NCBI GenBank assembly: GCA_001800285.1
Contig: MGVC01000078.1
Location: 1 to 64,000, forward strand
Reading direction: 5' to 3'
Source of the DNA: Elusimicrobia bacterium RIFOXYA2_FULL_39_19
Lineage (GTDB): Bacteria; Elusimicrobiota; Endomicrobiia; CG1-02-37-114; XYA2-FULL-39-19
DNA: 64,000 nt
A program made the position numbers and the translations under genes. Below the pieces are notes generated by a model. That model worked only from the letters and a program-made list of their open reading frames with translations. It was not told where the DNA came from and made no database searches. Numbering within the stretch: the stretch's first letter is position 1; each line of letters opens with the position of its first letter. This document shows positions 31,426-54,800 of this stretch, one piece after another.

Positions 31426-33273
31426 TTATCTTCTATTTTCAAGAAAGTTTATGCGTTTAAGAAGCTCTGCTATTTCTTTGTCTTTTGTCTGTATGTCGCG
31501 CTCTGCATGAATCAGTTTCATGGTGAGGTCTTGAATAGACCTTTCTATCTGTTTCATCTCTCTGTCACGTTCTGTCATAAGGGCATTCTGGCGTGTAAGC
31601 AGTTCGTTTTTATGGCTTTCCCAGTTTTTCTGTTCGCTATTTAGCAGAGACTGCCATTCTTTTCTTTCAGAATCAGACTGTTCCAGCAATTTCTGCACTT
31701 CAGCTTCCAGTTCATATATTCTTGATTTCTGCGTATAGTTTTCTACTTTAGTTTCCTGATAAATAATCCTCAGTTCATTAAACTGACCGTGAATGGTTTC
31801 TATTTCACTGTTAAGGCCTTTTATTTCCTCATCACGGGCCACCCTCAACTTTTCAAGCATCCCGGTAATTTCTTGTATTCTTGATTCTGACCTGGATTGC
31901 TCTTCTATGAAAGTCCTGCGCCAGTCAATTCTGTCCTGGTCAATCTGAACAACTAATTTATGTTTGTCCTCTTTGAGCATCTCGTTATGATATTTCAAAG
32001 TCTGATTCTGTGTTTTCTCAAGCTGGAAAAGCCTTTCTTCTTCGTTTAGGCTTGCTCTTAATTCCAATATTTCGGCATTAATTCTTTGAGTGTCATTTTC
32101 TTTTGATTTTTTGTAATTTTCATACTGAGCCAGAATTTCATTTTTCTGGTTTTCGTAATAATCTTTCTGACCGGCAATCTGTAAATCCAGCTTCTGGCGT
32201 TGTTCCTCGGTTATTTTCTGCAGCATGTCCAGTTCTTCCATGAGCAGTTTAATCTGGCCTTCTTTGTCACTATTGCGCTGTGTTAGCTCTTCATTGGTTT
32301 TCTTTTCCTGGGTTAGCTGCAGCTCAAGTATCTGAAGCATAGCCGAAACCCTGGATATTTGTTCTTCGGTTGAAAACTTTAGTGTTTGTTCTTTTTCTAT
32401 AAGATCTCTTTTGTAGTTTTCCCATTCTCTTTGTTCTATTTCCCATTTTTCATGCCATTTTTTTCTTTCAGCTGATATTTCATCATGATTTTTCTTGTTA
32501 AGCTGTTCCAGCTCCGTTATGGCATTGGCTTTCTGCTGAGTTTCATGTTTTAGCTCTTCATTTTTTTGTATTTCCTCTGTTAATTTTACTGATACTTCCT
32601 GCAAAGCCCTGGAAATTCTGGTAGTGCCCTCGTCTTTATCAGCCACGATTTTCAAGTGGTTTTGTTTCTGGTTCTGGATTACCTGTTCATAATTTTTTAT
32701 TTTATCCTGCAGGTTTACTAATTCCTTGTCAAAAATCTGCCGTTGCTTGCTCCAGTCATCCTCTTTTTTTAGCAGAGTTTCCTGCAAAGAAAGGATTTTT
32801 TCTTCGTTTTTTGCAATCAGGTCCCTTAAAGTTTTTTCTTCTGCAATATGGCGTTCGCGGAATTTTGTAAGAGAAGCCTGTTCCTGGATAAGCTTAAACT
32901 GCAATTCTTCGGCAATACTGCGGAACGTTTTTACCCTGTCTTCTATGGAGTTCCATTTTTCCGTTTCATTAAGTTTACGGACTTTGTTTTCAGTAATGGT
33001 ATTTTTAAGTTTTTCTACTTCTTCCAGGCGATCCTGGGTAAAGTTATCCTTAAGTCTTTTAATTCTTACTTCTGTTTCGTTTAATTTACCACGCAGATTA
33101 TTTATTTCCTCTTCCTTATTTTCGTAAATTTTTGACCACTGGTCTTTTTCATTGCGGTACCTGTTTCGCAATACCTGCAAAGTCTGCTGGGATAACTGGT
33201 TTTCGGTTTCTATTAATTCTTTTAAAAAGTCTGTTTCTCGCTTTAAGCTTTCATTCATTTTTATAAGCTCCAT
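31426..33273 (-). CDS. 615-aa coiled-coil protein, divergent from the MotA operon
   Basis: Almost entirely E/K/Q/L-rich heptad-like sequence with no signal peptide; recurrent Trp-containing segments (KWHEKWEIEQREWENYKRDL, EWQSLLNSEQKNWESHKNEL). Confidence 0.75.
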   Translation of the reverse strand: MELIKMNESLKRETDFLKELIETENQLSQQTLQVLRNRYRNEKDQWSKIYENKEEEINNLRGKLNETEVRIKRLKDNFTQDRLEEVEKLKNTITENKVRKLNETEKWNSIEDRVKTFRSIAEELQFKLIQEQASLTKFRERHIAEEKTLRDLIAKNEEKILSLQETLLKKEDDWSKQRQIFDKELVNLQDKIKNYEQVIQNQKQNHLKIVADKDEGTTRISRALQEVSVKLTEEIQKNEELKHETQQKANAITELEQLNKKNHDEISAERKKWHEKWEIEQREWENYKRDLIEKEQTLKFSTEEQISRVSAMLQILELQLTQEKKTNEELTQRNSDKEGQIKLLMEELDMLQKITEEQRQKLDLQIAGQKDYYENQKNEILAQYENYKKSKENDTQRINAEILELRASLNEEERLFQLEKTQNQTLKYHNEMLKEDKHKLVVQIDQDRIDWRRTFIEEQSRSESRIQEITGMLEKLRVARDEEIKGLNSEIETIHGQFNELRIIYQETKVENYTQKSRIYELEAEVQKLLEQSDSERKEWQSLLNSEQKNWESHKNELLTRQNALMTERDREMKQIERSIQDLTMKLIHAERDIQTKDKEIAELLKRINFLENRR

Positions 33274-33362
33274 AATTATAATAATTAGTGTTGTACTATA
33301 AATATAGCCTATTTTGGCGGAATTTCAAGGGTTTTTTTAAAAAAAGCATTGAATTGCACAAG

Positions 33363-33391
33363 TTGACAAATATAGGCCAACTTTATATAAT
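33363..33391 (+). promoter_or_regulatory. Perfect sigma70-type consensus promoter TTGACA-17-TATAAT upstream of motA
   Basis: TTGACA 33363-33368, 17-nt spacer, TATAAT 33386-33391; GGAG Shine-Dalgarno at 33414-33417. Confidence 0.85.
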
Positions 33392-33426
33392 TTTTTAACT
33401 AATATTTACTAACGGAGATGAAAAAC

Positions 33427-34200
33427 ATGATTGATTTAATGTCATTATTGGGATTAACCCTTGGAGTCGGAGCAATTTACATAGTTATGTACTGGGGCGG
33501 AACCGTACACCTACTCTGGCATAAAGACGCATTTGTACTGGTATTCGGCGGTACGTTTGCTTCTATAATGATTGCCACACCGTGGTCAATTTTTAAAAAT
33601 GTTCCCAGAGCTCTGATGAATGTGTTTTTTCTGCGTGCTACACTTACCCCCAGGCAGGTTATTACTCTGCTTGTAGGTTATGCAGAAAAATCAAAAAGGT
33701 CAGGCATTGGAAGTTTACAGGAAGATGTGGGTCAGTTAAAGGACAGGTTTTTAAGTGACGGTATTATGATGGCTATTGACGGGCTTGATACGGAATTAAT
33801 AAGAGAAAATTTGATGAAAGAAATTATATTTATCCGCAAAAGGCATTATCAGGTAAGCAATGTAGTGCGTACCATGGGTACCTTTGCCCCCATTTTCGGA
33901 CTATTAGCCACTCTTTTGGGCGTTGTACAGGTACTTAGAGGTATTAGCGATCCGAAAAGCCTTGGGGCATCCATGGCTATTGCCGTTACCGGTACATTTT
34001 ATGGTATCTGCAGTGCGAACTTTTTATTTCTGCCAGTTGCCAACAAACTTGAAGCGCACACGGAATCTGAACTTCTTTTAAAAGAAGTTATTATTGAAGG
34101 TATATTGTCAATCCAACAAGGCGATATTCCTTTGATTGTCAGCAGAAAATTACAGGCCTTCCTTGCTTACCAACTGCGTGAAAAACGCAAAAGCAGTTAA
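33427..34200 (+). CDS. motA: MotA/PomA-type proton/sodium channel subunit (start moved to second ATG)
   Basis: APIFGLLATLLGVVQVL...LGASMAIAVTGTFYGICSANFLFLPVANKLE; cytoplasmic KRSGIGSLQED loop. The first ATG (33418) directly abuts GGAG, so ATG 33427 is better spaced. Confidence 0.9.
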   Translation: MIDLMSLLGLTLGVGAIYIVMYWGGTVHLLWHKDAFVLVFGGTFASIMIATPWSIFKNVPRALMNVFFLRATLTPRQVITLLVGYAEKSKRSGIGSLQEDVGQLKDRFLSDGIMMAIDGLDTELIRENLMKEIIFIRKRHYQVSNVVRTMGTFAPIFGLLATLLGVVQVLRGISDPKSLGASMAIAVTGTFYGICSANFLFLPVANKLEAHTESELLLKEVIIEGILSIQQGDIPLIVSRKLQAFLAYQLREKRKSS

Positions 34201-34214
34201 TTTCAGGTAAAAAA

Positions 34215-34871
34215 TTGAACATTTACGAAGACGAGGACTCTAACGAACAGGAAGAATCAGGCGGTCATAGCAGCCCGTTATGGATGATTATCTATACGGA
34301 CATGATAACCAACCTGATGATATTTTTCCTTTTATGTTACTGCCTTACCTGGTTAAGCAAAGAAGAAAGAGAAATAGCCGCCGCCTCGTTTGATAAAACC
34401 TTTTCCGGAAAAGATACTGTAGTGGAACAGATGGTGCAGAAACAGGAAGAAAAAGTTGCTGAAGAGAAAATAAAAGAAGAGTTTGATAACGTAGAAATAA
34501 ACGAAGAAAAAATAAAAATCACACTGCCCAGCCCGGTGCTTTTTGATTCCGGAAAAGCGGAACTTAAACCCCAGGTAATTACCAGTCTTCATGAAATAGC
34601 TAAAGTTATAAAAAGCATGCCCAACCGCATCATTGTAGAAGGCCATACCGACAACAAACCTATAAAAATGAAAGAATTTAAATCCAATTGGGAGCTTTCC
34701 AGCGCCAGGGCTTTCAGTGTTATCAGATATTTTATTGACAAAGAAAACATAGACCCGAAAAGGCTGATAGCTCTTGGTTACGGCGAATACCGCCCCAAGA
34801 CTGATAATGATACACCTGAGCACTGCGCTGAAAATCGCAGAATAGAACTTAATATCTTAAGAGTAAAATAA
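34215..34871 (+). CDS. motB: MotB-like stator protein 1 (TM plus OmpA-like peptidoglycan-binding domain), TTG start
   Basis: PLWMIIYTDMITNLMIFFLLCYCL (conserved Asp) and IIVEGHTDNKPI...NWELSSARAFSVIRYF...RRIELNIL. Confidence 0.88.
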   Translation: MNIYEDEDSNEQEESGGHSSPLWMIIYTDMITNLMIFFLLCYCLTWLSKEEREIAAASFDKTFSGKDTVVEQMVQKQEEKVAEEKIKEEFDNVEINEEKIKITLPSPVLFDSGKAELKPQVITSLHEIAKVIKSMPNRIIVEGHTDNKPIKMKEFKSNWELSSARAFSVIRYFIDKENIDPKRLIALGYGEYRPKTDNDTPEHCAENRRIELNILRVK

Positions 34872-34873
34872 AT

Positions 34874-35680
34874 ATGCGCTTACCTATACAACAGAAAATA
34901 CAACCAAAGAAAAAAAAGATGGTCTTAAAAGAACCCAAACCAATGGACATTTCCGGACTCTGGATTATCCCCTATGCTGACTTTATGACTGTATTGATGA
35001 TATTTTTTCTGCTGATGTTTGCTTTCGCCTATTCCATGAAAGGTTCTAAATATAAAAAAATTGTCACGCAAATTCAGGAAGAAATGGGCGGAGAAGTAAA
35101 AAAAGAAATTATTGAAAACATGATTAATGAACAGAAAGACCAGGAAACTGCGGATAAAATTGACGAAATTATTACAAAACAGAACTTAAAAAACTTTGTA
35201 AACGTCACCACAGACTCAGAGCAGATTAAAATTGTCTTTGCTAATCCAATATTGTTCGAATCCGGAGCAGCAGAGCTTAAACCCACAGCTCTTGAAATAT
35301 TAAAGGGCGTGGCCCAGGTTATAAAATTCATGGACAATGAAGTAATAGTTGAAGGGCACACGGACAACGTGCCTGTATCAGGTATCAAATATAAATCAAA
35401 CTGGGATTTATCTGTTGCCAGAGCTATGAGTGTAATAAGATATTTCGCTGATACTGAAGGGCTGGCGTACAACAGATTTGCAGCTGCAGGTTATGGAGAA
35501 TACAGACCTATGTTTCCGAATACTACAGAAGAAAACAGGGCACAAAATAGAAGAATTGAAGTAAATATTATAAGAAAAGCCAAAACCGAAGAGAGTGAAA
35601 TGGAAGAAGATGTAAACACTACTCAGGAAGAAACACCAACACCGTCAGAAAAACAACCCGCCCCAGTAACTACACATTAA
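34874..35680 (+). CDS. MotB-like stator protein 2 (TM plus OmpA-like domain)
   Basis: GLWIIPYADFMTVLMIFFLLMFAF (conserved Asp); VIVEGHTDNVPVSGIKYKSNWDLSVARAMSVIRYF. Confidence 0.9.
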   Translation: MRLPIQQKIQPKKKKMVLKEPKPMDISGLWIIPYADFMTVLMIFFLLMFAFAYSMKGSKYKKIVTQIQEEMGGEVKKEIIENMINEQKDQETADKIDEIITKQNLKNFVNVTTDSEQIKIVFANPILFESGAAELKPTALEILKGVAQVIKFMDNEVIVEGHTDNVPVSGIKYKSNWDLSVARAMSVIRYFADTEGLAYNRFAAAGYGEYRPMFPNTTEENRAQNRRIEVNIIRKAKTEESEMEEDVNTTQEETPTPSEKQPAPVTTH

Positions 35681-35768
35681 TTTAAATCTATCTATAAAAT
35701 CATCCTTTTCTATCGCTGTAATCGATTCTTTTATACCCTACTCGGTTTCTTTTATTGCTGTAATGCTC

Positions 35769-37268
35769 TTATGAAGTAAAATCTTCTGTAGTTACAGGTA
35801 CTTCCTCGGCACTGATTACATCTATTTTTGCTTCAAGGATAGTCTGTTTCTTTGAGCGATCAATAATTATATCGCCGTTTTTCTCCAGCTCCCTCACTAC
35901 ATTTGCTATGGCCTTCTGCTCTTCCTGAACTCTTTTTAAAGATACTTCTCCCAACAGGTCAATCTGTTCTGCCAGCATAGCTCTAGCGCCTTCTGTTAAA
36001 ACGTCCATAATTTTCTGTTTAATATCTTCCGTAGTATTTTTAAGCGACAGCGCCAGTGAAATACCGAGTTTCTGCACTTCTCTGATTACTTTCTGCATAA
36101 CCTGCTTGTCAAGAATAACAATATCTTCAAAGAAGAAGAGAGACTGTTTGAGTTTTGCTGCCAGTGCCGGATTGGTCTGTTCCAGGCTTTTTAAAATATT
36201 TTCCTGGCCTTCTCTGTCTACCTGATCTAATAAATTCAGGAAGTATTCCTCGCCACCGACTAAATAATCTATTTTTTGTTTAATTTCCTTCTCAATCTTA
36301 TTTACTTCGTCAGGATCAATGATTTTGGGTGTCGTTAATGCAAGAGCAACCTTTGACTGCACTACAGGAGCAAGTGAATTAATTATGAGAGATGTAAAAT
36401 CTGGAGGCAGATAACTTGCAATAATGGATATTTTCTCTGGATCTTCATTTTTTAGTAAGAATATCAGATTTTTAAAATTCTCTTTGTTTATAAATCCAAA
36501 TTTTTTCATGCTTTCATCTCCCTTTCCTTTATCTAACTGCGGCCTGCGCCTGTCTAATGTAAGCTCCAGAGAACCACCTCCGGGCAAGCCTGCCGGCAAC
36601 CCGGGCCCCGCCATGGCAGTATTTTCAAAACCGCCCCTTATTCTTGTATCTGCCTGAATACGTATTTCCATGGCTTTCACTATAGTACTGAAAAAATGCC
36701 TGAGCGGCCCGAATAAAAACAACGCCAAAAGAAGAATGGTAAATATCCAGTAAATCTGTGAGCTATAAAGCGTCAGGTAATCCTTCCACATCATCTTTTT
36801 TTCATAGAAAGCTATTTTCTGGACATCCACCACGTCTCCCCGTATATTGTCCAGGGAAAGCAGTGTATTGACTTCCTTTTTTATACGGTCAACAACTATC
36901 TGTGAAACTTTCTGGTCTACCGTCACAGAAATAGTGATTTTTTTTATGATTACGTTTTTGGAGGCGCTTCCTTCGTTGGGCATGTAGGAATAGGTGATGC
37001 CGGGCAAGTATTCCTCTTCCTGGGTTGTCATTCCCGGATACGCCTGGGTCTGGGTCGTTTTTGCAGGTTCATCATAAGCCAGCTCGGCATTTACCAACAC
37101 CACCATATCTTTGGTACCGGTTATTTTTTCAACCAGTCTTTCTGTCCGTTCCTGCAAAGACCTTTCAAGGCTAAGCTTCTGTTCCATCAAAGCTTGCGGC
37201 AATAGTGTCTGTGTTTGCGTAAAAACCATAAGCAAACTTAATGCAAGATAAAGTATTGTCTTTTTCAT
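35769..37268 (-). CDS. Natural FliF(C-terminal ring-building domain)-TM-FliG(middle + C domain) fusion protein with signal peptide
   Basis: N-term signal; FliF/YscJ-like IIKKITISVTVDQKV...LLSLDNIRGDVVDVQKIAF; TM YWIFTILLLALFLFGPL; FliG-like LLKNEDPEKISIIASYLPPDF...LFFFEDIVILDKQVMQKVIREV...ISLALSLKNTTEDIKQKIMDVL...VSLKRVQEEQKAIANVVRELEKNGDIII. Confidence 0.85.
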   Translation of the reverse strand: MKKTILYLALSLLMVFTQTQTLLPQALMEQKLSLERSLQERTERLVEKITGTKDMVVLVNAELAYDEPAKTTQTQAYPGMTTQEEEYLPGITYSYMPNEGSASKNVIIKKITISVTVDQKVSQIVVDRIKKEVNTLLSLDNIRGDVVDVQKIAFYEKKMMWKDYLTLYSSQIYWIFTILLLALFLFGPLRHFFSTIVKAMEIRIQADTRIRGGFENTAMAGPGLPAGLPGGGSLELTLDRRRPQLDKGKGDESMKKFGFINKENFKNLIFLLKNEDPEKISIIASYLPPDFTSLIINSLAPVVQSKVALALTTPKIIDPDEVNKIEKEIKQKIDYLVGGEEYFLNLLDQVDREGQENILKSLEQTNPALAAKLKQSLFFFEDIVILDKQVMQKVIREVQKLGISLALSLKNTTEDIKQKIMDVLTEGARAMLAEQIDLLGEVSLKRVQEEQKAIANVVRELEKNGDIIIDRSKKQTILEAKIDVISAEEVPVTTEDFTS

Positions 37269-37288
37269 TTGTTTTTTATACCCTTCAT

Positions 37289-38935
37289 TTATTTCATTTT
37301 TCTTATAAACTCTTCAAGTTTCGGGTCCGGCTGTATGTTCAATGATTTCCGCCATATTTCTTTAGCTTTTTCTTTTTCACCTAACGCATAAAAAGCTGAA
37401 CCCATTCTCTTTAACGCCGCTACGTTTTCAGGTTCAAGCACCAGAATCTGTTCGCAAATGCTTATAGCAGTCCAGAAATCACGTTTACGGAAACTTATAA
37501 GGCATTCGTAAAGTTTCTGGTCTACTACAGTCAACCCTGCCATGGGTGAAACCTTTTCAGCTTTGATGCTGGTTTTTTCTTCAAGTCTGTTTAAAAGGCG
37601 TTCTATTGTAAAGTTTTCAGGGACTATAGACAATGCATAGGCAATAGTTTTCACGGCGTTTTTACCATCGCCGTCAACATAATAACTTACACCTCTTCTC
37701 ACCAGGTCACCTTCTTTACCTGGTGACATATACTGGGATATTACTTCCGTTACAGTTTTTAACCTTTCTATGTACAGCGGAATTAATGAATCATCCGGGA
37801 ACAGCTCGCTGGCTTTAGTAAATTTCTCATACGCCGTAGAGAACATGCCGCGGTTATAATCCTGTATGGCTTCCTGGTAAAGCATTTTGAATTTATCTTC
37901 TTTAAGCTGCCTTGCTTCAGCATCCATGTCATTTTCTGCTTCAACTACTTTTTCCTTTGCTTCTTCTTCTTTCTTAAGTTTTATTGTTTCCAGGCTTTCT
38001 CCGAATTTATATGCATAAGATAATCTATGTGACGGCCCGAGGTAATCATTCATGGCTATTGCGTAATCAAAACCCATGGTTTTATAAGTAATGCCAAAAC
38101 CTGTTGTCAGCTCTTGATTATTTTTACCAAGCCTCAATTTTATAAATTTATAAACCAATGACTCTAAACCTACGGAATAATAATCTATTAAACTTCCGGA
38201 ATTCATTGAATTTTTATTCATATCGAAAGCCAGTAGCAATTTGTCCCCGAAAATTCTATAACCCAAACCGAGTTTTATGGATACAGGTAATTTGTCATCC
38301 GTGTCACCCAATTGCAGAGAAATCAGATTTGAAATATTTGTGCCCAGTGACAATTTCTGGTTCATTTTGTAATATCCGCCGATATCAAAGGAAAAATAAT
38401 TTATATTGCTTGTGCTTAAAGTTGAATTCAATATCTTGCCATTTATCCCAAAATATACCTTCGGAATTAGTTCTTTGCCATAAGCAAAACACAATGCCAT
38501 TTTTGAATGGTCAAAACTTCCCGTAGGCAGATTATTATCATCCCTGCCCTGGGCCCCGCCGGAATAAAGGCGCACAAAATTAAAACCAAAAACACCTTTA
38601 TTATAAGCCGGATGAACATATCCCAGAAAACTGTAATTTGTTTCTTCCCACAGAATAGAATAAGAAGCCAGCATTTCCTTGTATTGAAGGGCGCCAAGGG
38701 CACCACTATTGTAGTAAGGGGCAGATACATCTTCTGCTATGCCTGTATAAGCTCCGCCAAGTGCAAAAGCGCGCGCATTAGATCCAAATGATAAAAATGA
38801 AGACGGGTCAGTACCAGCTCCATAAATAATTGATGATTTAACATACAGGCAAAGAATCATTAATACAACAAAACAGATGCTGCATGTTTTTGAATTTGCA
38901 TGCACAGAAGTATTTCTCAGTGTGTTATTTGGCAT
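37289..38935 (-). CDS. PorV/PorQ-like outer-membrane protein with C-terminal TPR region
   Basis: FLSFGSNARAFALGGAYTGIAEDVSAPYYNSGALGAL; C-terminal ALKRMGSAFYALGEKEKAKEIWRKSLNIQPDPKLEEF. Confidence 0.8.
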   Translation of the reverse strand: MPNNTLRNTSVHANSKTCSICFVVLMILCLYVKSSIIYGAGTDPSSFLSFGSNARAFALGGAYTGIAEDVSAPYYNSGALGALQYKEMLASYSILWEETNYSFLGYVHPAYNKGVFGFNFVRLYSGGAQGRDDNNLPTGSFDHSKMALCFAYGKELIPKVYFGINGKILNSTLSTSNINYFSFDIGGYYKMNQKLSLGTNISNLISLQLGDTDDKLPVSIKLGLGYRIFGDKLLLAFDMNKNSMNSGSLIDYYSVGLESLVYKFIKLRLGKNNQELTTGFGITYKTMGFDYAIAMNDYLGPSHRLSYAYKFGESLETIKLKKEEEAKEKVVEAENDMDAEARQLKEDKFKMLYQEAIQDYNRGMFSTAYEKFTKASELFPDDSLIPLYIERLKTVTEVISQYMSPGKEGDLVRRGVSYYVDGDGKNAVKTIAYALSIVPENFTIERLLNRLEEKTSIKAEKVSPMAGLTVVDQKLYECLISFRKRDFWTAISICEQILVLEPENVAALKRMGSAFYALGEKEKAKEIWRKSLNIQPDPKLEEFIRKMK

Positions 38936-38938
38936 AAA

Positions 38939-45928: not shown

Positions 45929-46107
45929 TCTTTTAAATATTTTAAATTATTAAAAGAATTAATATATACTATAATAATACCCTTTTTTTGGCTTAAAGTC
46001 AATAATTTTGTTGTTTTTGTCATTTAAAATTGAAAAGTGGACACTTTTTCAATGATTTAAAGTTGAAAAGTGGACACCCCTTTTTAGGCAAATTACCTTT
46101 GCTTAAA

Positions 46108-46179
46108 CCTAAACGATTCTTTTATCGTTTAGGCACGCATAGTCCCCTTTCAAGGGGACGTTCCGATGTTGTTTCGGAA
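46108..46179 (+). promoter_or_regulatory. Three consecutive hairpins in IS leader
   Basis: CCTAAACGAT-tctttt-ATCGTTTAGG; GTCCCCTT-tc-AAGGGGAC; TTCCGA-N7-TCGGAA. Confidence 0.75.
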
Positions 46180-46226
46180 TGCGGAAAGGGGTTGTTATAA
46201 TCTAAAGAAAAAGGAGGATTTAGATT

Positions 46227-47486
46227 ATGACACAAATACACAAAAGATTTACAGATGAGCAGATCAAGAATCTCGTAGAACGGTATTTAAAAAAGGAAAT
46301 TGAAAGAAAGTATATCCAGGAAATTCTTGGAATAGGCAAATCAAGATTCTTTAAATTAGTGGCCGAATACAAAAAATGTCCGGACAAATTCTCGATAAAA
46401 TATGAAAGAGCTACAAGTACGAAAATACCTCAAGACATAGAACATAATATCATTAAGGAACTCAATATCGAAAAAAAGCTTATTGAAGACAAAAATGTCC
46501 CATTAAAATCATACAACTATAGCTACATCAAGGACCGTCTGAAAAATGATTATCACCAGGAGATATCTTTGCCTACAATCATTGACCGGGCTAAAAAGAA
46601 CGACTTTTATCTTAACAGACCTAAAAGAAAGGCTCATGACAGAGAAGTATTAACCAATTATGCCGGTGAACTTATCCAGCATGATTCGTCACATCATCAA
46701 TGGAGTCCTTACGCCTCAGAAAAATGGTATTTGATAACTTCCTTAGACGATTACAGCAGGTTCATGCTGCATGCCAGCCTTGTTAAACATGAAACTTCCT
46801 GGAACCACATCCTTGCCATGGAATCCATATTCCTGAAATATGGATTACCTTATTCTTTTTATGTAGATTCCCATTCAATTTTCAGATTCGTTCAAGGCAG
46901 GGATTCCGTATGGCGGGAACATATCAAGCTCACTGACCAGGCCAATCCTCAATGGAAGCAGGTTTTAACTGATTGCAATGTGAAAATTATTTATGCTTTG
47001 TCCCCTCAAGCTAAAGGAAAGATTGAGCGTCCTTATGGATGGCTGCAGGATAGAATTGTCAGAACCTGCGCCAGGGAAAATGTTTCAGATATTAAACAAG
47101 CCCAAAACATCTTGAATCATGAAATTCACCGGTATAATTACCGGCAGGTACACAGCACTACCCTAGAAGTGCCGTATTTCAGATTTAAAAAAGCTTTAAG
47201 TGAAAATAAAACATTGTTCAGGGACTTCAGCCTGAAACAGCCGTTTGTTTCATCTAAGGATATCTTCTGCTTAAGATTTCAAAGAACTACTGATGCCTAT
47301 AGAAAAATATGTTTTAATGACTTGTCTTTAAGAATTAATGCTGACCCTCACAAAGATATTGAATTACGTATTTCACCCGTAAATAACACCGTTTCAGAAG
47401 TCAGGTGTTGGTTCCAAAATAAGCTTATTGATGTCCTTAAAATCAAAAATATTGATTTAGATTTGGTGTCCACTTTTCATCTTTAA
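46227..47486 (+). CDS. DDE (rve integrase core) transposase
   Basis: ELIQHDSSHHQWSP; LITSLDDYSRFMLHA; FYVDSHSIF; IIYALSPQAKGKIERPYGWLQDRIV. Confidence 0.9.
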   Translation: MTQIHKRFTDEQIKNLVERYLKKEIERKYIQEILGIGKSRFFKLVAEYKKCPDKFSIKYERATSTKIPQDIEHNIIKELNIEKKLIEDKNVPLKSYNYSYIKDRLKNDYHQEISLPTIIDRAKKNDFYLNRPKRKAHDREVLTNYAGELIQHDSSHHQWSPYASEKWYLITSLDDYSRFMLHASLVKHETSWNHILAMESIFLKYGLPYSFYVDSHSIFRFVQGRDSVWREHIKLTDQANPQWKQVLTDCNVKIIYALSPQAKGKIERPYGWLQDRIVRTCARENVSDIKQAQNILNHEIHRYNYRQVHSTTLEVPYFRFKKALSENKTLFRDFSLKQPFVSSKDIFCLRFQRTTDAYRKICFNDLSLRINADPHKDIELRISPVNNTVSEVRCWFQNKLIDVLKIKNIDLDLVSTFHL

Positions 47487-47548
47487 AGTGTCCACTTTTC
47501 AATTTTCGCTAACATAATTTTGTTGTTTTTTATGGTTTCTGGGTTAAT

Positions 47549-47911
47549 TTAGATAAATCTGCTTATTTTCTCAAGAAAGGTTTTTACATCAAAGGGTTTT
47601 GGCAGGTAATCATCTATACCAAGTGAAAATATTTCTTTTCTCATTTTTGGTGAGTCATAACCGGTAATAACCATAACTATAGTGTTTTTTAACCGCGGAT
47701 TTGAACGGACATATTTGCAGATATCAAAACCGGATATATTGGGCATCATCAAATCCATGATTATAATATCCGGTGATTCTTTTGGTATTTCCAGCACGGC
47801 AATTGATGAAGATGAAAAAAACCTTGCTTCAATATTCTTCATCATAAAAACATCTTTTATAAGCAATGCCACGTCCGGATCATCTTCTATTACAAATATT
47901 TTCTTGTTCAT
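47549..47911 (-). CDS. Single-domain response regulator
   Basis: KIFVIEDDPDVALLIKD...DIIIMDLMMPNISGF...VITGYDS...DDYLPKPFD. Confidence 0.92.
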   Translation of the reverse strand: MNKKIFVIEDDPDVALLIKDVFMMKNIEARFFSSSSIAVLEIPKESPDIIIMDLMMPNISGFDICKYVRSNPRLKNTIVMVITGYDSPKMRKEIFSLGIDDYLPKPFDVKTFLEKISRFI

Positions 47912-47920
47912 TTTTTACGG

Positions 47921-49336
47921 TTAGACTGCTGGAAGAATTACTATAAACTCTGCGCCTTTTCCTTCACCTTCGCTCCTTGCTACAATTGAACCATTGTGTT
48001 TCTGAATAATTCCGTAACTTACCGTTAAACCCAGGCCGGTGCCCTTACCAATGTCTTTCGTAGTAAAAAACGGGTCAAATACATGCCCAACATTTTCTTT
48101 TTTTATACCAATACCGCTGTCTTTGAAAGATACCATTAAATTATTTTTATCCAGAGCTGCGGTGATTATCAGCCTGCCGCCGCCGCGCGGAGCCATGGCG
48201 TGTATTGAATTACTGACGATGTTCAAGAATACCTGCTGAACATGGCTTGCAGATATTTTTATATTTGGCAGGTTTTTGGGAACATTTTTTATAACTTCAA
48301 TATTCGAGGACCTCATTTCAGTTTCACAAAAATTCAAAGTTTCAATAATCAACATTTCAATATTTGCCGGCTGGAAAACATAATTTTTTTCACGGGCAAA
48401 ATCAAGCAGGGCTCTTACAATTTTTCTGCAGCGCTGGGCTGCCTGCTCTATTCTTTGAAGGTGCGACACACTGGGGTCATCCTTGGGAAGCTTTTCCAGC
48501 AATAACTGTGCCTGCCCCAATACCCCTGTCAGCGGATTATTGATTTCGTGTGCCACTCCTCCTGCCAGCTGTCCTATGCTTGACATGCGGTCCATTTGAA
48601 CAATCTGTAACTGCAGTTTTCTTAAATTGTCAACCATCTTATTAAAACTTTCAGCCAATTTTCCCATTTCGTTTGTAGGGGTTACCGTTATTCTGTAGTC
48701 AAGATTTCCTTCACCTATTACTTTTGTGCCTTCAATCAATGCTTTTAAAGGGTTCCATATAGAAGTAAACGTAATCACACCAAGTAATATGCCGACGAAT
48801 ATAGCTACGGCGCCAAAAGAAGCAGATATGATAAGGTTTCTCTTGCTTATTGTTTTTACTGTTTCTTCATAGTTACTTAATAACGTGTAATGGTTATCAA
48901 TAACAATTACAAGTTTTTCCTGCAGGTTTTTTTCGTCGGAAAGAATTGAGTTTTCATAAACACCGAATCTTTTTTCTCTTTGCGCTGAAAATATTTCATT
49001 ACAGGCTTTGAGGTATAAGAGGTAGCGGCTGTTTATGTCTGTTTTATCAGGGCCTTCCGGTATTTTTTTTATTTTTGACTGAATGGTTTCGGTTTGTTCT
49101 ATGAATTTATCTTTTTCTGTTGAATCGTTTAGAATGATGAAGTAACTGATGCTTTTTGTCTGTCGTTCAAAGGAAAGGTTTATTTCCCGCCAGAGAGTAA
49201 GTGTTTCAGAAATAGCAAGGCTTTTATCAAGAAGGGTTTTAGACTGCTGCGTATAGGAAACGAACATAACACTGATTGACAAAACCAGCGACACAAGTAC
49301 ACCAAACGCGATGAATAGCCGTATTTTTATTGACAT
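47921..49336 (-). CDS. Membrane sensor histidine kinase (HAMP, HisKA, HATPase)
   Basis: LAGGVAHEINNPLTGVLGQAQLLL; HAMP-like region after TM2; DSGIGIKKENVGHVFDPFFTTKDIGKGTGLGLTVSYGI. Confidence 0.93.
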   Translation of the reverse strand: MSIKIRLFIAFGVLVSLVLSISVMFVSYTQQSKTLLDKSLAISETLTLWREINLSFERQTKSISYFIILNDSTEKDKFIEQTETIQSKIKKIPEGPDKTDINSRYLLYLKACNEIFSAQREKRFGVYENSILSDEKNLQEKLVIVIDNHYTLLSNYEETVKTISKRNLIISASFGAVAIFVGILLGVITFTSIWNPLKALIEGTKVIGEGNLDYRITVTPTNEMGKLAESFNKMVDNLRKLQLQIVQMDRMSSIGQLAGGVAHEINNPLTGVLGQAQLLLEKLPKDDPSVSHLQRIEQAAQRCRKIVRALLDFAREKNYVFQPANIEMLIIETLNFCETEMRSSNIEVIKNVPKNLPNIKISASHVQQVFLNIVSNSIHAMAPRGGGRLIITAALDKNNLMVSFKDSGIGIKKENVGHVFDPFFTTKDIGKGTGLGLTVSYGIIQKHNGSIVARSEGEGKGAEFIVILPAV

Positions 49337-49360
49337 GCCAAATTTAAAATATCCGTCTTT

Positions 49361-49759
49361 CTATTGTGCTACTATTATGGTTCCGTTATAAACTTTGTTT
49401 TTTGCTTCCATTACGTAAAGATAAACACCAGGGTTTACGCGGGATCCTGCAGAATCCAAGCAATTCCATTTGAAACACCAGTCAAAACTGTTTGCTTTAG
49501 GCGTTCTTTCATAAGAATCAATTTCCCTTATATTACGCCCGTCTATAGTGTAAATTTTTACCCGTACATTTTCATATTGCGGGTCAGAAAATTCAAATAT
49601 CACGCAATTATTATCATTCGTTCCGTAGTAAGGTGTTACTATTTTAGGATACACCTTTTTAAGCTGCAAGTCAAACTCATCCGAGAAGCAGTTAGTACTA
49701 TTGTGCACATAAACCAACATAACTGTCAGTACCGCAAAAAACCATAAAACTCTTTTCAT
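49361..49759 (-). CDS. Small secreted protein consisting of signal peptide plus a FlgD-Ig/CTD-like domain only
   Basis: VYPKIVTPYYGTNDNNCVIFEFSDPQYENVRVKIYTIDGRNIREIDS...PGVYLYVMEAKNKVYNGTIIVAQ; same end as the 1012-aa protein (KVFNGTIVVAR). Confidence 0.7.
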   Translation of the reverse strand: MKRVLWFFAVLTVMLVYVHNSTNCFSDEFDLQLKKVYPKIVTPYYGTNDNNCVIFEFSDPQYENVRVKIYTIDGRNIREIDSYERTPKANSFDWCFKWNCLDSAGSRVNPGVYLYVMEAKNKVYNGTIIVAQ

Positions 49760-49840
49760 TTTACTCCCCCCATTATTTTATTTTTGTTTTTTTACTGCCT
49801 ATTAACTTCCTTTATTGATAAACACTGATATCAGTGTTAA

Positions 49841-49911
49841 CGTGATTAATCGTTAAGTAATTAACAGTTTATTTTTCTAACCACTTAACAACTTAATCAC
49901 TTATCCACCGA
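49841..49911. repeat. Dispersed intergenic repeat, copy 4
   Basis: GTGATTAATCGTTAAGTAATTAAC...CTAACCACTTAACAACTTAATCACTTATCCACCG. Confidence 0.6.
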
Positions 49912-49915
49912 CTTC

Positions 49916-51601
49916 TTATTTGCCTATCGCATCCAGTTCTTTCTGCGCTTCAGACACATCAATACCGAACTGTTCATATCTGCTTATAATTTTCTTTAAC
50001 AGGTCTGACTGCGTTTTCTGGTCTATCCCTTTTGCAACCATCTTTCTGTAGTATGTTAAGCTGTCAGTATACATTCTGCCCTGGTTTTTCTGTTCTTCAA
50101 GCAGGATCTTGTATTCGCCCTGAGCAGAAGAAGTATCAATCTTTTTGTCTTTAAATCTGACAACAATCTGTTTTATCTTTTCAACACGGTCATTAAATAT
50201 AAGCTTATCTGCTGTTTTTCTGTAAGTATTATATTCACCCAGATACTGTCTTTCCGGATTGTCGGAAGATACCGGTGCAAGTTCTTTGGATGCAGACGGT
50301 TTGCCGGTTTCTTTTGTCTCTTTTGACGGCTTCTGTTCCGCCGGAACGGGTATAACTGGTATCGGCCTCTTAAGCAGTTCTTCCAGCTGGTCTTTAAGCT
50401 TTTCAATTTCAACTTTTGCAATTTCAAGTTCTCTGTTTGTGGTTTCAAGTACTTTGTTAGTAGTATCAAGTTCTTTACTGGCCTTATCAAGCTGTTTGCT
50501 CTTTTCGTCCAATTTCTGTTCTGTTTCAATTCTGACTTTCTGTTCTTTTGCATAAGCCATTTGCAGTTCCGCATCAAGGCTGTCGTGGAGCACCGGCCCG
50601 AATTTCAGAACCATGGATACTTTATGGTTGCCCATGGTGTTTTTTATTCCGCTAAACGGATATTCTATGGCATAATCAAACTGTATTCCTTCGGTTTTAA
50701 AACCTACACCTACCGCCAGATTCATAAGTTCTCTGCTTCCAAATACAATTCCGGACCTGAGGCCCATGCCGAAAGGCAAGTATTTTTCTCCGGAAACAGC
50801 AATTTTATAATCACTGATTTTATTAGTCTGTTTAGTCATATAATCCAGGCCTAGGGCATAGCTTTTACCGGTATGGGCAAAACCAATATTGTAAACTGCC
50901 GGCAATTTTGATTCCACTGTATCGTCCAGGGCAATATTCGGCTGGGTAATATTCTGAATCATAAACGCTACTTTATAGTTTGAAAAAATTGAATACTTCA
51001 TTCCAAAATCCACTGTTGACGCTGTTTTAGTAAAACCATATTTATCAAACAAAGCGTCTGCTCTGGCAGTACCTGTTTCAAGGGAAGAGGCGATACCGTC
51101 ATTGTTTAGCGTATCGTAAGTGTACGTATCTTCACCGTAACCAATAGACAATGTTTTCAGATTAAAACCAACATCGAGTTTTCTCACGCCGCCTATAGTA
51201 AAGTTCTTGCCGTAGGAAAGAATAAATGTGCTTTCCTTATAGAGATTATCAGCATTAAAGTTCAGCACGGAAACACCGATGGTGCCAAAGTCACGTTTTA
51301 TCCTAAGCGGCTGGGCTATGCCCACAAAGGAATAGCTTAAATTTGATTTATCCCACAAACCCATATACATCTGGGAATACTGAGCGGTGAATTCACCTCT
51401 TGGAATAAGAGACAATCCTGCGGGGTTATAGTACACCGCATAGATATCATCAGCCAGGGCCGTATAAGCCCCGCCCAGGCCTGCCGGCCTGGCGCCGATG
51501 GCTATGGGCTCAAAGGCCGCATAGCTTACAGCGGTCATTATAAAACTGACCGTTAACATTAAAATTACGTTGATGCAGATTCTTAAGTGTTTTGCATTCA
51601 T
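49916..51601 (-). CDS. PorV-like outer-membrane protein with C-terminal coiled coil; start moved to MNAKHLR
   Basis: FEPIAIGARPAGLGGAYTALADDIYAVYYNPAGLSLIPRGEFTAQYSQMY; heptad region EQKLDEKSKQLDKASKELDTTNKVLETTNRELEIAKVEIEKLKDQLEEL. The ORF-track extension is encoded by a stem-loop repeat. Confidence 0.85.
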   Translation of the reverse strand: MNAKHLRICINVILMLTVSFIMTAVSYAAFEPIAIGARPAGLGGAYTALADDIYAVYYNPAGLSLIPRGEFTAQYSQMYMGLWDKSNLSYSFVGIAQPLRIKRDFGTIGVSVLNFNADNLYKESTFILSYGKNFTIGGVRKLDVGFNLKTLSIGYGEDTYTYDTLNNDGIASSLETGTARADALFDKYGFTKTASTVDFGMKYSIFSNYKVAFMIQNITQPNIALDDTVESKLPAVYNIGFAHTGKSYALGLDYMTKQTNKISDYKIAVSGEKYLPFGMGLRSGIVFGSRELMNLAVGVGFKTEGIQFDYAIEYPFSGIKNTMGNHKVSMVLKFGPVLHDSLDAELQMAYAKEQKVRIETEQKLDEKSKQLDKASKELDTTNKVLETTNRELEIAKVEIEKLKDQLEELLKRPIPVIPVPAEQKPSKETKETGKPSASKELAPVSSDNPERQYLGEYNTYRKTADKLIFNDRVEKIKQIVVRFKDKKIDTSSAQGEYKILLEEQKNQGRMYTDSLTYYRKMVAKGIDQKTQSDLLKKIISRYEQFGIDVSEAQKELDAIGK

Positions 51602-51644
51602 TGAAGTGCCCTCCGTAAAGGCTGATAATAATTTATAATTGCGT

Positions 51645-51708
51645 GCGGGAAGCACGTAAAGCATAACTTTACCCCCGTAAAGGCAGACTTCCGTGCTCCC
51701 GCAGGATA
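51645..51708 (-). repeat. GGGGG-loop stem-loop element, copy E
   Basis: Minus strand TGCGGGAGCACGGAAGTCTGCCTTTACGGGGGTAAAGTTATGCTTTACGTGCTTCCCGCA; in the 5' region of the PorV/coiled-coil gene. Confidence 0.7.
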
Positions 51709-51761
51709 TTTTTTCTATTAAACAATTAAAAAACAATTTTATTCTTTTCATATTTTTACCC

Positions 51762-54700
51762 TTATCTGGCCACCACTATAGTGCCGTTAAATACTTTTCC
51801 TTCGCCTTCCAACTGATAAATATAAGTTCCCGGTATCACTACACTGCCGATTGTATCTGTGCCATCCCAGTACATATAACCGCCGGGAGTATTTGAGTTA
51901 TCGCTTGTTCTGTCAATTTCCTTTACCAGCTGGCCGTTCATATCAAATATTTTTATTCTGATTTCAGTGGTTTTTGGGTTATCAAATCTAAACAGCGCGC
52001 GGTCATTCTGGCCGTCATTGTTAGGCGTAATTATTTTCGGCTTTACTTCATAGTAAGTAAATTCTGTGGCTTTTAACGCATATCTTATCTGGTACATACC
52101 AAGATATTTAACATCGGATTTTACGCCCTGGTTTACGGCATCTACCGCAGAAGACAGCTTGCTCCATTCTTTGCCGTTGAAATAGAACAGAGACAACCAT
52201 TTTTCCGGTTCCTGAAGGACTTTGTTCATCTGCGCGCCTCTGGAAGCAATAGTCTGATTGTCATATTTTATGGAAACCTGAGCTTTGGGTTTTTCAAAGC
52301 TGAACCCTGCTGATAATTTCAGCTGGCCATCAACTATTTTGTAAGGTTCAATTACAAAAGATCTGAAAATCGGGCCTTTTTCGCTTACCGCATCTCTTGT
52401 CCATTTTATAAATGTGTCTTTTACGGTATCTTTAACATCTTTACCCATTTTAACATAAGAATTGTCAGATATTACTGAATACAGATTTAAGTCCTGGGAA
52501 TCATCAACCACCATAGAGTCATTATAGTTGCCGCAAATATCTACGGCTCTTATCTTATAATATTTTACTTCATCGGTAACAGTAAGGCTTACATAGGGCT
52601 GGGGCACATTCGGTTTTGTAGATACGGCAAGTGTCCAGTTTGCCATATCGGCTGAAGTAAGCACCTGGTATCTGTATATTTCAGATGACCTAAACGATGT
52701 TTGGTTAAGCGTCACAAGTGTTGTCTGGCTGGTGGTGTACTGCTGATACTGTACCGGCAGCCAGCTAACGGTAAAGGCATTTCCGTCTCTTGTGTTGGTT
52801 ATGTTAAGCGGAGGGAGCGGCACAGTATCATCTTTAGGTATGTTAACAAAACCAACTTTTGTCATAGAAGAGAAATTGTTTGACCAGTCACTTAAGAAGA
52901 AACCAAAGTAGTATGAAGTATTGCCCACAAGTTCCTTAATAGTTAAAGAATCTGCGGTTAATTTCATTGGGGTTTTAAAGAAATAGGCCCCGTCAAAAGC
53001 ATTTTCAGGAAGCCTGTCTGTTCTGTAGGTGACATACATTTTATCAAGGTCTGAGCTGTCCGGATAGTTCCAAGACAGGTTAATTATACAACCTTCATTT
53101 ATGTCTTCAGACCAGGTAGAAGTTACTGAAGTGCTGGATATTCCAGCTGGCGGCAATACATCTTTCCAGACATATATGGAAGTTGTGGCTATTGAGAAAT
53201 TATTCACTTCATCAACGGTCATAATTTCAAAATAATATGTATTTTGGGGCTGGAGCTGGTTAATCTGGTAACAGGTTGCAGAGGTAAGCAGTTCTACCGG
53301 CGATTGGTAAGGATACCCGCCGTTAGCAAGATAGTTATCCGTACTGACGGTTACTACTGTTTTCACCCAGCCTCTGTTCTGGTACTGTGTTTTATCAAAA
53401 TCAGGATGAGTCCAATTCAGGTTTACGTAAGAACCAATGGCATCATTGGCTTCCGCAAGAGCCGTAAGGTTTGTTACCGCATCTGGCGCAGTAACGTCAT
53501 AAGCCGTGTATACTGAAGCAACGGTTCCGGTTCCGGAATAGAGTACCGGGTCAGAAGTATCAAAAGTATACATTTTATAGTAATAAGTTGTTCTTGGTTC
53601 CAGTTTCAGATGCAAATAAGTTGTCCAATAATGCGGTGTAAGTCCTGAAAGAGTAATACTCTGAGAATGTGACAAATCAGACGGATAAGTTTCCGTGCTA
53701 TAGAGTATTTTCACACCGTCAAATCCCCTCACATCGCTAACCTGCGGGTTTCTCCAGGTAAGAGCTACATAAGTAGCAGAGCTTATATCCGTTGAAGCAT
53801 AAGTATCAATCAGCAGGTTATTTATTTCATCCGGAGGATAATAATTGAACGCTCTTGAAGCGCCTGTATTTGACTGATAAGACCAGTTATTTCTGCCAAA
53901 CCATTCGTCACTGGTCCAGCTCAGGAAATAGTAAGTAACACCCGTGTTCAGATTATTAATATATACAGTCTGGTTTTCTCCCGGATATACATTGGATGTA
54001 GAAATGATTATCTGCTGAGCATAATTCCAGTAAGCAAGAGGATCCTGTTTAAGCTGTTCGGCATCAATTAAAGGCGGAACAACTGTTGAATAAACTATTC
54101 TGTATTTTCCGTCAATTATTCTGTTTGATGTATAGTCATTACCCATGGCAGTCCAGGTAAGTTTTATTGAACCCGGCACACCGTCTGTCGGCTGGGCCAG
54201 CAGGTCAGACAAAGGAGCCGGCGGCTGCGAAGATGTAGAAGCATAAGTGCTTGATTGATAGGTTATGTATCTGGCTTTATCATCCAAAGCGCTGTGATTA
54301 AACACATTATCCAGAGACTGGATACCAAACCAGTAAAGCTGGGAAGGATTAAGACCTGTTAAAGTGTAAGACTGATAAGAATGCGGCAGTCCTGTTGCCG
54401 GAATACCCCAGATGGGGTCTTTTATGGGAGACGTAATAGTTTTCACAGAAGCATGATTCCACCAGGCTGTAGTATCACTGCTTACATCATAAATGCTGAA
54501 TGTTGCATATCTGATGATATATGAATAAACCGGCCTTTCATCAGGCATATCTACAGGAGCAGTCCATTCTAACCTAATCTTTCCGCCGCCTTCATCATTT
54601 AATCCGGTTACAAATTCAGGAGTTGAATTAAGGTCAGTTACCGGTGTAGGAGGAGTAGTATCAATAATGGCTCCGCCGACTCTCAACACAAGAAATGCCG

Positions 54701-54800
54701 TATCGCTTGCATACAATGCAGGCACATAACACCCCTGTCCCAATAGGGCTACTATTAAGACAAGACGGCAGAGTTGGTTTAGAATCGACCTTTTATTCAT
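51762..54800 (-). CDS. 1012-aa secreted protein: multiple FN3-like domains and FlgD-Ig/CTD-like C-terminus
   Basis: Repeated TPPTPVTDLNSTP / APDAVTNLTALAE / SGLTPHYWTTYLHL patterns; C-term VKPKIITPNNDGQNDRALFRFDNPKTTEIRIKIFDMNGQLVKEI...VIPGTYIYQLEGEGKVFNGTIVVAR. Confidence 0.85.
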   Translation of the reverse strand: MNKRSILNQLCRLVLIVALLGQGCYVPALYASDTAFLVLRVGGAIIDTTPPTPVTDLNSTPEFVTGLNDEGGGKIRLEWTAPVDMPDERPVYSYIIRYATFSIYDVSSDTTAWWNHASVKTITSPIKDPIWGIPATGLPHSYQSYTLTGLNPSQLYWFGIQSLDNVFNHSALDDKARYITYQSSTYASTSSQPPAPLSDLLAQPTDGVPGSIKLTWTAMGNDYTSNRIIDGKYRIVYSTVVPPLIDAEQLKQDPLAYWNYAQQIIISTSNVYPGENQTVYINNLNTGVTYYFLSWTSDEWFGRNNWSYQSNTGASRAFNYYPPDEINNLLIDTYASTDISSATYVALTWRNPQVSDVRGFDGVKILYSTETYPSDLSHSQSITLSGLTPHYWTTYLHLKLEPRTTYYYKMYTFDTSDPVLYSGTGTVASVYTAYDVTAPDAVTNLTALAEANDAIGSYVNLNWTHPDFDKTQYQNRGWVKTVVTVSTDNYLANGGYPYQSPVELLTSATCYQINQLQPQNTYYFEIMTVDEVNNFSIATTSIYVWKDVLPPAGISSTSVTSTWSEDINEGCIINLSWNYPDSSDLDKMYVTYRTDRLPENAFDGAYFFKTPMKLTADSLTIKELVGNTSYYFGFFLSDWSNNFSSMTKVGFVNIPKDDTVPLPPLNITNTRDGNAFTVSWLPVQYQQYTTSQTTLVTLNQTSFRSSEIYRYQVLTSADMANWTLAVSTKPNVPQPYVSLTVTDEVKYYKIRAVDICGNYNDSMVVDDSQDLNLYSVISDNSYVKMGKDVKDTVKDTFIKWTRDAVSEKGPIFRSFVIEPYKIVDGQLKLSAGFSFEKPKAQVSIKYDNQTIASRGAQMNKVLQEPEKWLSLFYFNGKEWSKLSSAVDAVNQGVKSDVKYLGMYQIRYALKATEFTYYEVKPKIITPNNDGQNDRALFRFDNPKTTEIRIKIFDMNGQLVKEIDRTSDNSNTPGGYMYWDGTDTIGSVVIPGTYIYQLEGEGKVFNGTIVVAR

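Follow-up and report, generated by a model that had tools for sequence, protein, structure and literature searches.

Gene content and organisation of the locus

The window, the whole stretch of 64,000 nucleotides that we analysed, lies on a contig of 89.6 kb in a genome of 3.09 Mb that is approximately 98 % complete. The features of the locus are listed in Table 1. Running from 54800 down to 35769 on the minus strand are the genes for an FN3 surface protein with a CTD, a 611-aa PorV-family protein, a 132-aa CTD protein, a histidine kinase and a response regulator, then an insertion sequence, and then the genes for a giant surface protein, a PorV-TPR protein and a FliF-FliG fusion (FliFG). Only 3 bp separate the giant gene from the PorV-TPR gene, and 20 bp separate the latter from the FliFG gene. 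The motA-motB-motB genes are convergent with the strand of FliFG, and the gene for a 615-aa coiled-coil protein is divergent from motA. All genes named in a preceding sequence-only reading of this DNA were found at their positions, its estimates of the two short gaps agree with our measurements, and the insertion sequence that it had noticed is real, being bounded by terminal inverted repeats. Its gene order was correct for the genes listed and lacked two, those of the 611-aa PorV-family protein and the 1012-aa FN3/CTD protein. The insertion sequence separates the response regulator gene from the giant gene and may affect the expression of the giant operon; its 419-aa ORF had no Pfam match.

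Table 1. Features of the locus, with positions in the window and the evidence for each assignment
Feature	Position	Strand	Evidence
Candidate cytosolic coiled-coil scaffold/adaptor of the motor, 615 aa	31426..33273	-	hydropathy scan; homologue in G148
MotA stator subunit, flagellar class	33418..34200	+	PF01618 2.6e-21; solved flagellar MotA 9lu9 4.9e-44
MotB-1, ion-binding Asp (residue 29) kept	34215..34871	+	MotB_plug 2.8e-11, OmpA 1.1e-20
MotB-2, Asp36 present	34874..35680	+	MotB_plug 4.6e-12, OmpA 6.9e-19
FliF-FliG fusion, 499 aa	35769..37268	-	Pfam FliG_C 1.7e-25, FliG_M 7.6e-10, FliF_C weak
PorV-TPR, 548 aa, PorV-family outer-membrane barrel + C-terminal helix + TPR	37289..38935	-	NF033709
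Giant surface protein, 2329 aa	38939..45928	-	DUF2341, YCF48/BNR propeller, FlgD_ig
Insertion sequence	46015..47517	.	double terminal inverted repeats, 33 and 23 nt
ORF inside the insertion sequence, 419 aa	46227-47486	+	
Single-domain (CheY-like) response regulator	47549..47911	-	PF00072 3.4e-24
Histidine kinase with HAMP domain	47921..49336	-	HATPase_c 3.1e-21, HisKA 7.2e-16
132-aa protein, signal peptide + CTD-like domain	49361..49759	-	CHU_C 2.8e-4
Second PorV-family protein, 611 aa	49916..51751	-	NF033709 2.3e-12, below cut-off
FN3 surface protein with CTD (T9SS type B/A-like), 1012 aa	51762..54800	-	fn3 1.7e-8, CHU_C 1.6e-6

The FliF-FliG fusion and the stator

In the 499-aa protein, the last periplasmic domain and TM2 of FliF are naturally fused to the M and C domains of FliG. 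It consists of a signal/TM1 segment, an RBM3-like periplasmic domain, TM2, a linker, and FliG M and C. The earlier identification as FliF-FliG stands, with the qualification that an RBM3-like domain and TM2 are all that is present of FliF and that the FliG part has no N domain. A profile of the fusion family built from 31 sequences matched the solved structures of FliG M-C (1lkv, E 7.5e-68) and FliF (9yh6, E 1.5e-9), and a profile search with the flagellar gene pair aligned the first half of the fusion with approximately residues 232-505 of FliF and the second half with approximately residues 104-340 of FliG. The AF2 model (mean pLDDT 76) displays an alpha-beta-beta-alpha-beta domain at 24-152, TM2 and a long helix at 161-212, and FliG helices at 262-487; the arrangement of these domains is unreliable because of the low pTM of 0.37. 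Foldseek searches with this model recovered FliG 1lkv and the RBM3/collar part of FliF.

The fusions share near-invariant residues, namely FLFGP following TM2, an LPG in the periplasmic portion and a GG within FliG, and the xFxFED motif of FliG is also kept. The HPQ of the EHPQ motif, which binds FliM, is gone from the fusions together with FliM itself. The torque-helix arginine, at the position of R281 in E. coli FliG, is replaced by Gly, Ala or Ser in nearly all of them, so torque may arise differently or be weak.

The MotA of the window aligned over its full length with the solved flagellar MotA. Its best models were MotP/MotA/PomA, with scores below the equivalog cut-offs, and the torque-interface motif EKaKRxGixSLQxD is conserved across the MotA family. 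Taken together, the model and structure matches point away from the Agl stator group. Among 19 loci with paired MotBs, the ion-binding Asp is kept in 18 of the MotB-1 proteins and is replaced by Asn, Thr or Ser in 11 of the MotB-2 proteins (L037, L041, L044, L045, L052, L181 and L190-L194); the window has Asp in both. This pattern suggests a MotB1/MotB2 heterodimer in which the second ion site would often be dispensable.

Outer-membrane, surface and SprA-like proteins

The PorV-TPR protein scored 111 bits against the PorV/PorQ family NF033709 (cut-off 90). Its AF2 model comprises a barrel at 86-311, a helix of 48 residues at 315-362 and TPRs at 365-546. The top Foldseek match of the model was chain F of the T9SS complex 8gl6, which we take to be PorV; as the TM-scores of these matches are low, they support the fold class only. 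Homologues of the 611-aa PorV-family protein are present in the G035 and G102 loci, and so is the 1012-aa FN3/CTD protein (TIGR04131 1.7e-5; TIGR04183 22.8 against a cut-off of 23 bits). The giant protein ends in a FlgD_ig/T9SS-CTD-like domain with a weak TIGR04183 match below cut-off, and its homology to proteins of G035, G102 and G052 extends over most of the sequence. Overall, the CTD matches of the putative cargo proteins (TIGR04131, TIGR04183, CHU_C, FlgD_ig) were weak and mostly at or below cut-off. PorV-family genes are numerous, with up to at least 10 per genome among the matches listed.

Surface-protein ORFs lie beside all three fusion clusters of the window's genome and measure 2329, at least 9603 and 6863 aa. 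The one of at least 9603 aa is directly upstream of a PorV-TPR/FliFG/coiled-coil cluster of type 2 (see below; G000:C75:8002-36813, L066 and L034), and the one of 6863 aa, a signal-peptide protein with a CTD-like end, adjoins a type-3 cluster (G000:C14:5665-26256, L064 and L035).

SprA-like proteins of approximately 1760-1960 aa were identified in 129 of the 150 sampled Elusimicrobiota, including the window's genome (G000:C81), from TIGR04189 matches below cut-off. A profile of 11 of these sequences matched F. johnsoniae SprA (6h3i) with an E-value of 4.4e-26 in three colinear stretches. Genomes without the fusion also contain SprA-like genes, so the motor would either not be the only power source of SprA or act on a subset of the cargo. 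The sequence-only reading had proposed a search for further T9SS parts, which yielded this SprA homologue; the GldM model matched none of the 150 genomes and the GldL model nothing in the window's own genome, and the control genomes were likewise silent for both.

Coiled-coil and regulatory partners

By hydropathy scan, the 615-aa coiled-coil protein has no TM segment and no signal peptide. Its divergence from motA had been described correctly in the sequence-only reading, to which we add that the protein belongs to the set: its homologue in G148 (L045; 40 % over 272 aa) is encoded directly downstream of MotB2. In other cluster types, coiled-coil proteins of 1000-1900 aa adjoin FliFG. A homologue of the histidine kinase is retained in the loci of G035, G102, G012, G052 and G088, and G035 and G012 encode homologues of the 132-aa CTD protein at the equivalent position. 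Two loci of another fusion group (L012 in G086 and L020 in G037) have a histidine-kinase gene that extends a few bases into the start of FliFG, another hint of two-component control.

Conservation of the cluster in Elusimicrobiota and in a second phylum

Fusion homologues were identified in 48 of the 150 sampled Elusimicrobiota, namely 47 genomes and the flagellate G032. At no fewer than 58 of 111 fusion loci (at least 41 of 47 genomes), a lower bound tallied by hand from match coordinates, a PorV(-TPR) gene shares the strand of the fusion and lies less than 5 kb upstream of it, and the control positions at the same 111 loci gave 1 downstream and 0 on the opposite strand among the matches listed. 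On this strand and position control we rejected a chance neighbourhood, and the spread of the fusion across 48 genomes led us to reject an assembly error or single-genome oddity.

The phylogenetic tree separates four operon types. Type 1, to which the window belongs, has PorV-TPR/FliFG/MotA/MotB/MotB, type 2 has giant/PorV-TPR/FliFG with its own TPR tail/long coiled coils, and type 3 has FliFG/MotA/MotB/MotB/TPR protein. Type 4 is a further type-1-like locus; its G012 copy has PolA, CTD, HK and PorV genes as neighbours and in this resembles the window. Type-2 fusions mostly retain the acidic pair of their torque helix. In G035 the genes for FN3-CTD, PorV, CTD, HK, giant, PorV-TPR, FliFG, MotA, MotB and MotB follow each other in this order on one strand. 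A 289-aa protein of the type-3 cluster was considered as a PorV candidate and rejected, since Pfam recognised TPR only. The type-2 cluster of the window's genome is without motAB, and a third, more distant motA-motB pair with no fusion or TPR gene nearby (G000:C84:14108-14851, L036) is a possible stator for its rotor.

Contigs L136 and L142 belong to a second, smaller phylum, separate from that of the window, of which 16 genomes were sampled. The fusion is present in 13 and the SprA-like protein in 15 of them; given these 13, we rejected the idea that L142 ('Ca. Sumerlaeota') is a mislabelled member of Elusimicrobiota. L180 encodes giant/PorV-TPR/FliFG/coiled coil (approximately 1300 aa)/MotA/MotB on one strand, L183, L184, L186 and L187 have the same order on one strand minus the giant, and L192 and L194 have FliFG/MotA/MotB/MotB/TPR. 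In the tree, the type-2 sequences of both phyla form one clade (100/99) and so do the type-3 sequences (97/93), while two other sequences of the second phylum, type 3 by gene order, are placed elsewhere. The fusion types thus either predate the split of the phyla or moved as units, and their grouping across phyla indicates that they are old and retained by selection. The wider contig search was dominated by ordinary flagellar FliG, and the range of the fusion is accordingly given as at least two phyla.

Absence of flagella

FlhA was detected in one of the 150 Elusimicrobiota, the flagellate G032, and not in the window's own genome; FliM/N (PF01052) was likewise found only in G032, and the controls matched in both searches. 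None of the 16 genomes of the second phylum has FlhA. The sole flagellate in the Elusimicrobiota sample carries FlhA, FliM/N, a separate FliG and MotAB (G032:C2:105001-145000, L069 and L070). On these counts, a canonical or degraded flagellum was rejected as the source of the fusion clusters.

Proposed function and alternative explanations

The sequence-only reading had suggested an ion-driven motor that uses flagellar-type parts to export or move large adhesins, and had staked this on two points, that the neighbourhood recurs in relatives and that no standard flagellar cluster together with a standard T9SS elsewhere accounts for the genes. The neighbourhood is conserved in many families and in the second phylum, mostly in flagella-free genomes, and no flagellar cluster explains the genes; an ion-driven adhesin motor is therefore the best-supported reading, within which we infer the rotation, the coupling and the choice between export and movement. 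We assign a probability of about 0.62 to the proposal that the locus encodes a rotary motor which is independent of flagella and is coupled to a surface-protein system of the outer membrane. The broader claim has even odds in our judgement: a new class of rotary nanomachine, present in at least two phyla, in which a FliF-FliG ring without rod, export gate or switch is driven by MotA and two different MotBs, of which often just one bears the ion-binding Asp, and acts on the PorV carriers of a SprA translocon, exporting or moving adhesins of 2,000 to more than 9,000 residues.

Such a motor could work as follows. FliF-FliG would form a ring in the inner membrane, with the RBM3-like part oligomerising on the periplasmic side and the FliG M/C part serving as a cytosolic torque track, and a peptidoglycan-anchored MotA/MotB1/MotB2 stator would turn this ring by ion-motive force. 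The periplasmic side of the ring may engage the TPR tail of PorV-TPR or, in type 3, a separate TPR protein, and through this contact force would reach the outer membrane without a rod. In the Bacteroidota model, energy from the inner-membrane motor forces cargo-bound PorV off SprA (PMC10994853). On that model, PorV-TPR would be pulled or carried by the FliFG ring, and the force would drive PorV-type carriers that take over giant CTD adhesins at a SprA-like translocon whose gene lies elsewhere. The outcome might be release or export of the adhesins, their movement along the surface (gliding), or both. The cytosolic coiled-coil proteins could scaffold the ring or tie it to a cytoplasmic track, and the histidine kinase and the CheY-like regulator would control the motor.

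A gliding machine like Agl/Glt of Myxococcus, in which adhesion complexes are moved by the motor along a cytoplasmic coiled-coil track and the task of PorV/SprA is limited to adhesin delivery, would leave the motor no role in secretion. The combination of one MotA with two MotB-type subunits, which resembles AglRQS, would fit it, as would the long cytosolic coiled coils encoded next after FliFG in type 2, and the persistence of SprA-like genes without FliFG suggests that secretion is not always motor-dependent. Unlike Agl, however, the MotA belongs to the flagellar class and has a FliG track as its counterpart, the position of PorV-TPR immediately upstream of the rotor gene points to a direct link to an outer-membrane carrier, and surface motility of these lineages is not reported in the literature searched. 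We consider this explanation rather unlikely. Some other work in the envelope, such as moving peptidoglycan or lipids or sensing load, would make the nearby surface genes a habit of the genome; with PorV/CTD genes so abundant, some proximity could be incidental, and type-3 clusters have a TPR protein and not a PorV barrel. Against this stand the strictly upstream, same-strand PorV (at least 58 loci versus 1 and 0 among the matches listed), the dedicated TPR tail of PorV-TPR and the very large surface proteins next to all three clusters of the window's genome, which make it quite improbable.

A remnant of a lost flagellum, with no specific function or as a passive ring in the envelope, is strongly disfavoured and hardly credible to us. 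Flagellar fragments are known in non-flagellated species, and rotor proteins without a filament occur in 11 % of non-motile species, where remnants have been discussed (PMC12199754). Nevertheless, several old paralogue types of the domain-trimmed fusion are conserved across the two phyla, most of them accompanied by a dedicated stator or TPR partner in rearranged operons, and the invariant residues are retained.

Relation to known systems

The flagellar motor shares with this system homologous FliF RBM3 and TM2, FliG M and C, a flagellar-class MotA, and MotB with the plug Asp and OmpA domain. It differs in that here FliF and FliG are fused, RBM1/2, the FliG N domain, FliM/FliN and FlhA are missing, two different MotBs are present, and the motor is probably coupled to giant surface proteins and a PorV-TPR barrel. 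AglRQS/Glt of Myxococcus xanthus, with one MotA-type and two MotB-type subunits, appears analogous in this composition, in its cytosolic coiled-coil partner and in operating without a flagellum. To our knowledge the Agl system has no FliF/FliG rotor, whereas the stator described here is of the flagellar class and has a true FliG track. Agl proteins have been grouped with generic ion transporters (PMC12505986).

The T9SS and gliding machinery of Bacteroidota has in common with our system a (distant) SprA homologue and a PorV-family carrier and, probably, CTD-like cargo domains (weak matches here) and an ion-driven inner-membrane motor; in contrast, the motor here would consist of FliFG with MotAB in place of GldLM, and a TPR is fused to PorV. 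According to a review, GldLM is not homologous to MotAB (PMC13104615), and in the literature the T9SS is restricted to Bacteroidota (PMC4793230). The best reading is that the FliFG/MotAB rotor does in Elusimicrobiota what GldLM does in Bacteroidota. We found no description of a FliF-FliG/PorV system in the literature searched, the scope of which lay outside preprints and most subscription papers, and this suggests that FliFG/MotAB with SprA/PorV is a previously undescribed adhesin machine.

If this is true, torque based on FliG is not confined to flagella, and a true FliG/MotAB motor is placed on a SprA/PorV surface system for which Bacteroidota use the unrelated GldLM. It would give a concrete answer to the use of half a flagellar motor, rotor proteins having been noted in 11 % of non-motile species with no known role (PMC12199754), and a testable outgroup for reconstructing the origin or the dismantling of the flagellar motor. 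Lineages recorded as lacking flagella (PMC7031533, PMC11257099) would gain a candidate machine for motility or adhesin export, and the fusion could serve as a natural minimal rotor for structural work.

In one further locus (L121:9194-12820) the FliFG frame runs on via TPR into a coiled coil, giving 1208 aa, although masked Ns may hide a stop; if real, this frame would join rotor and coiled coil in one polypeptide.
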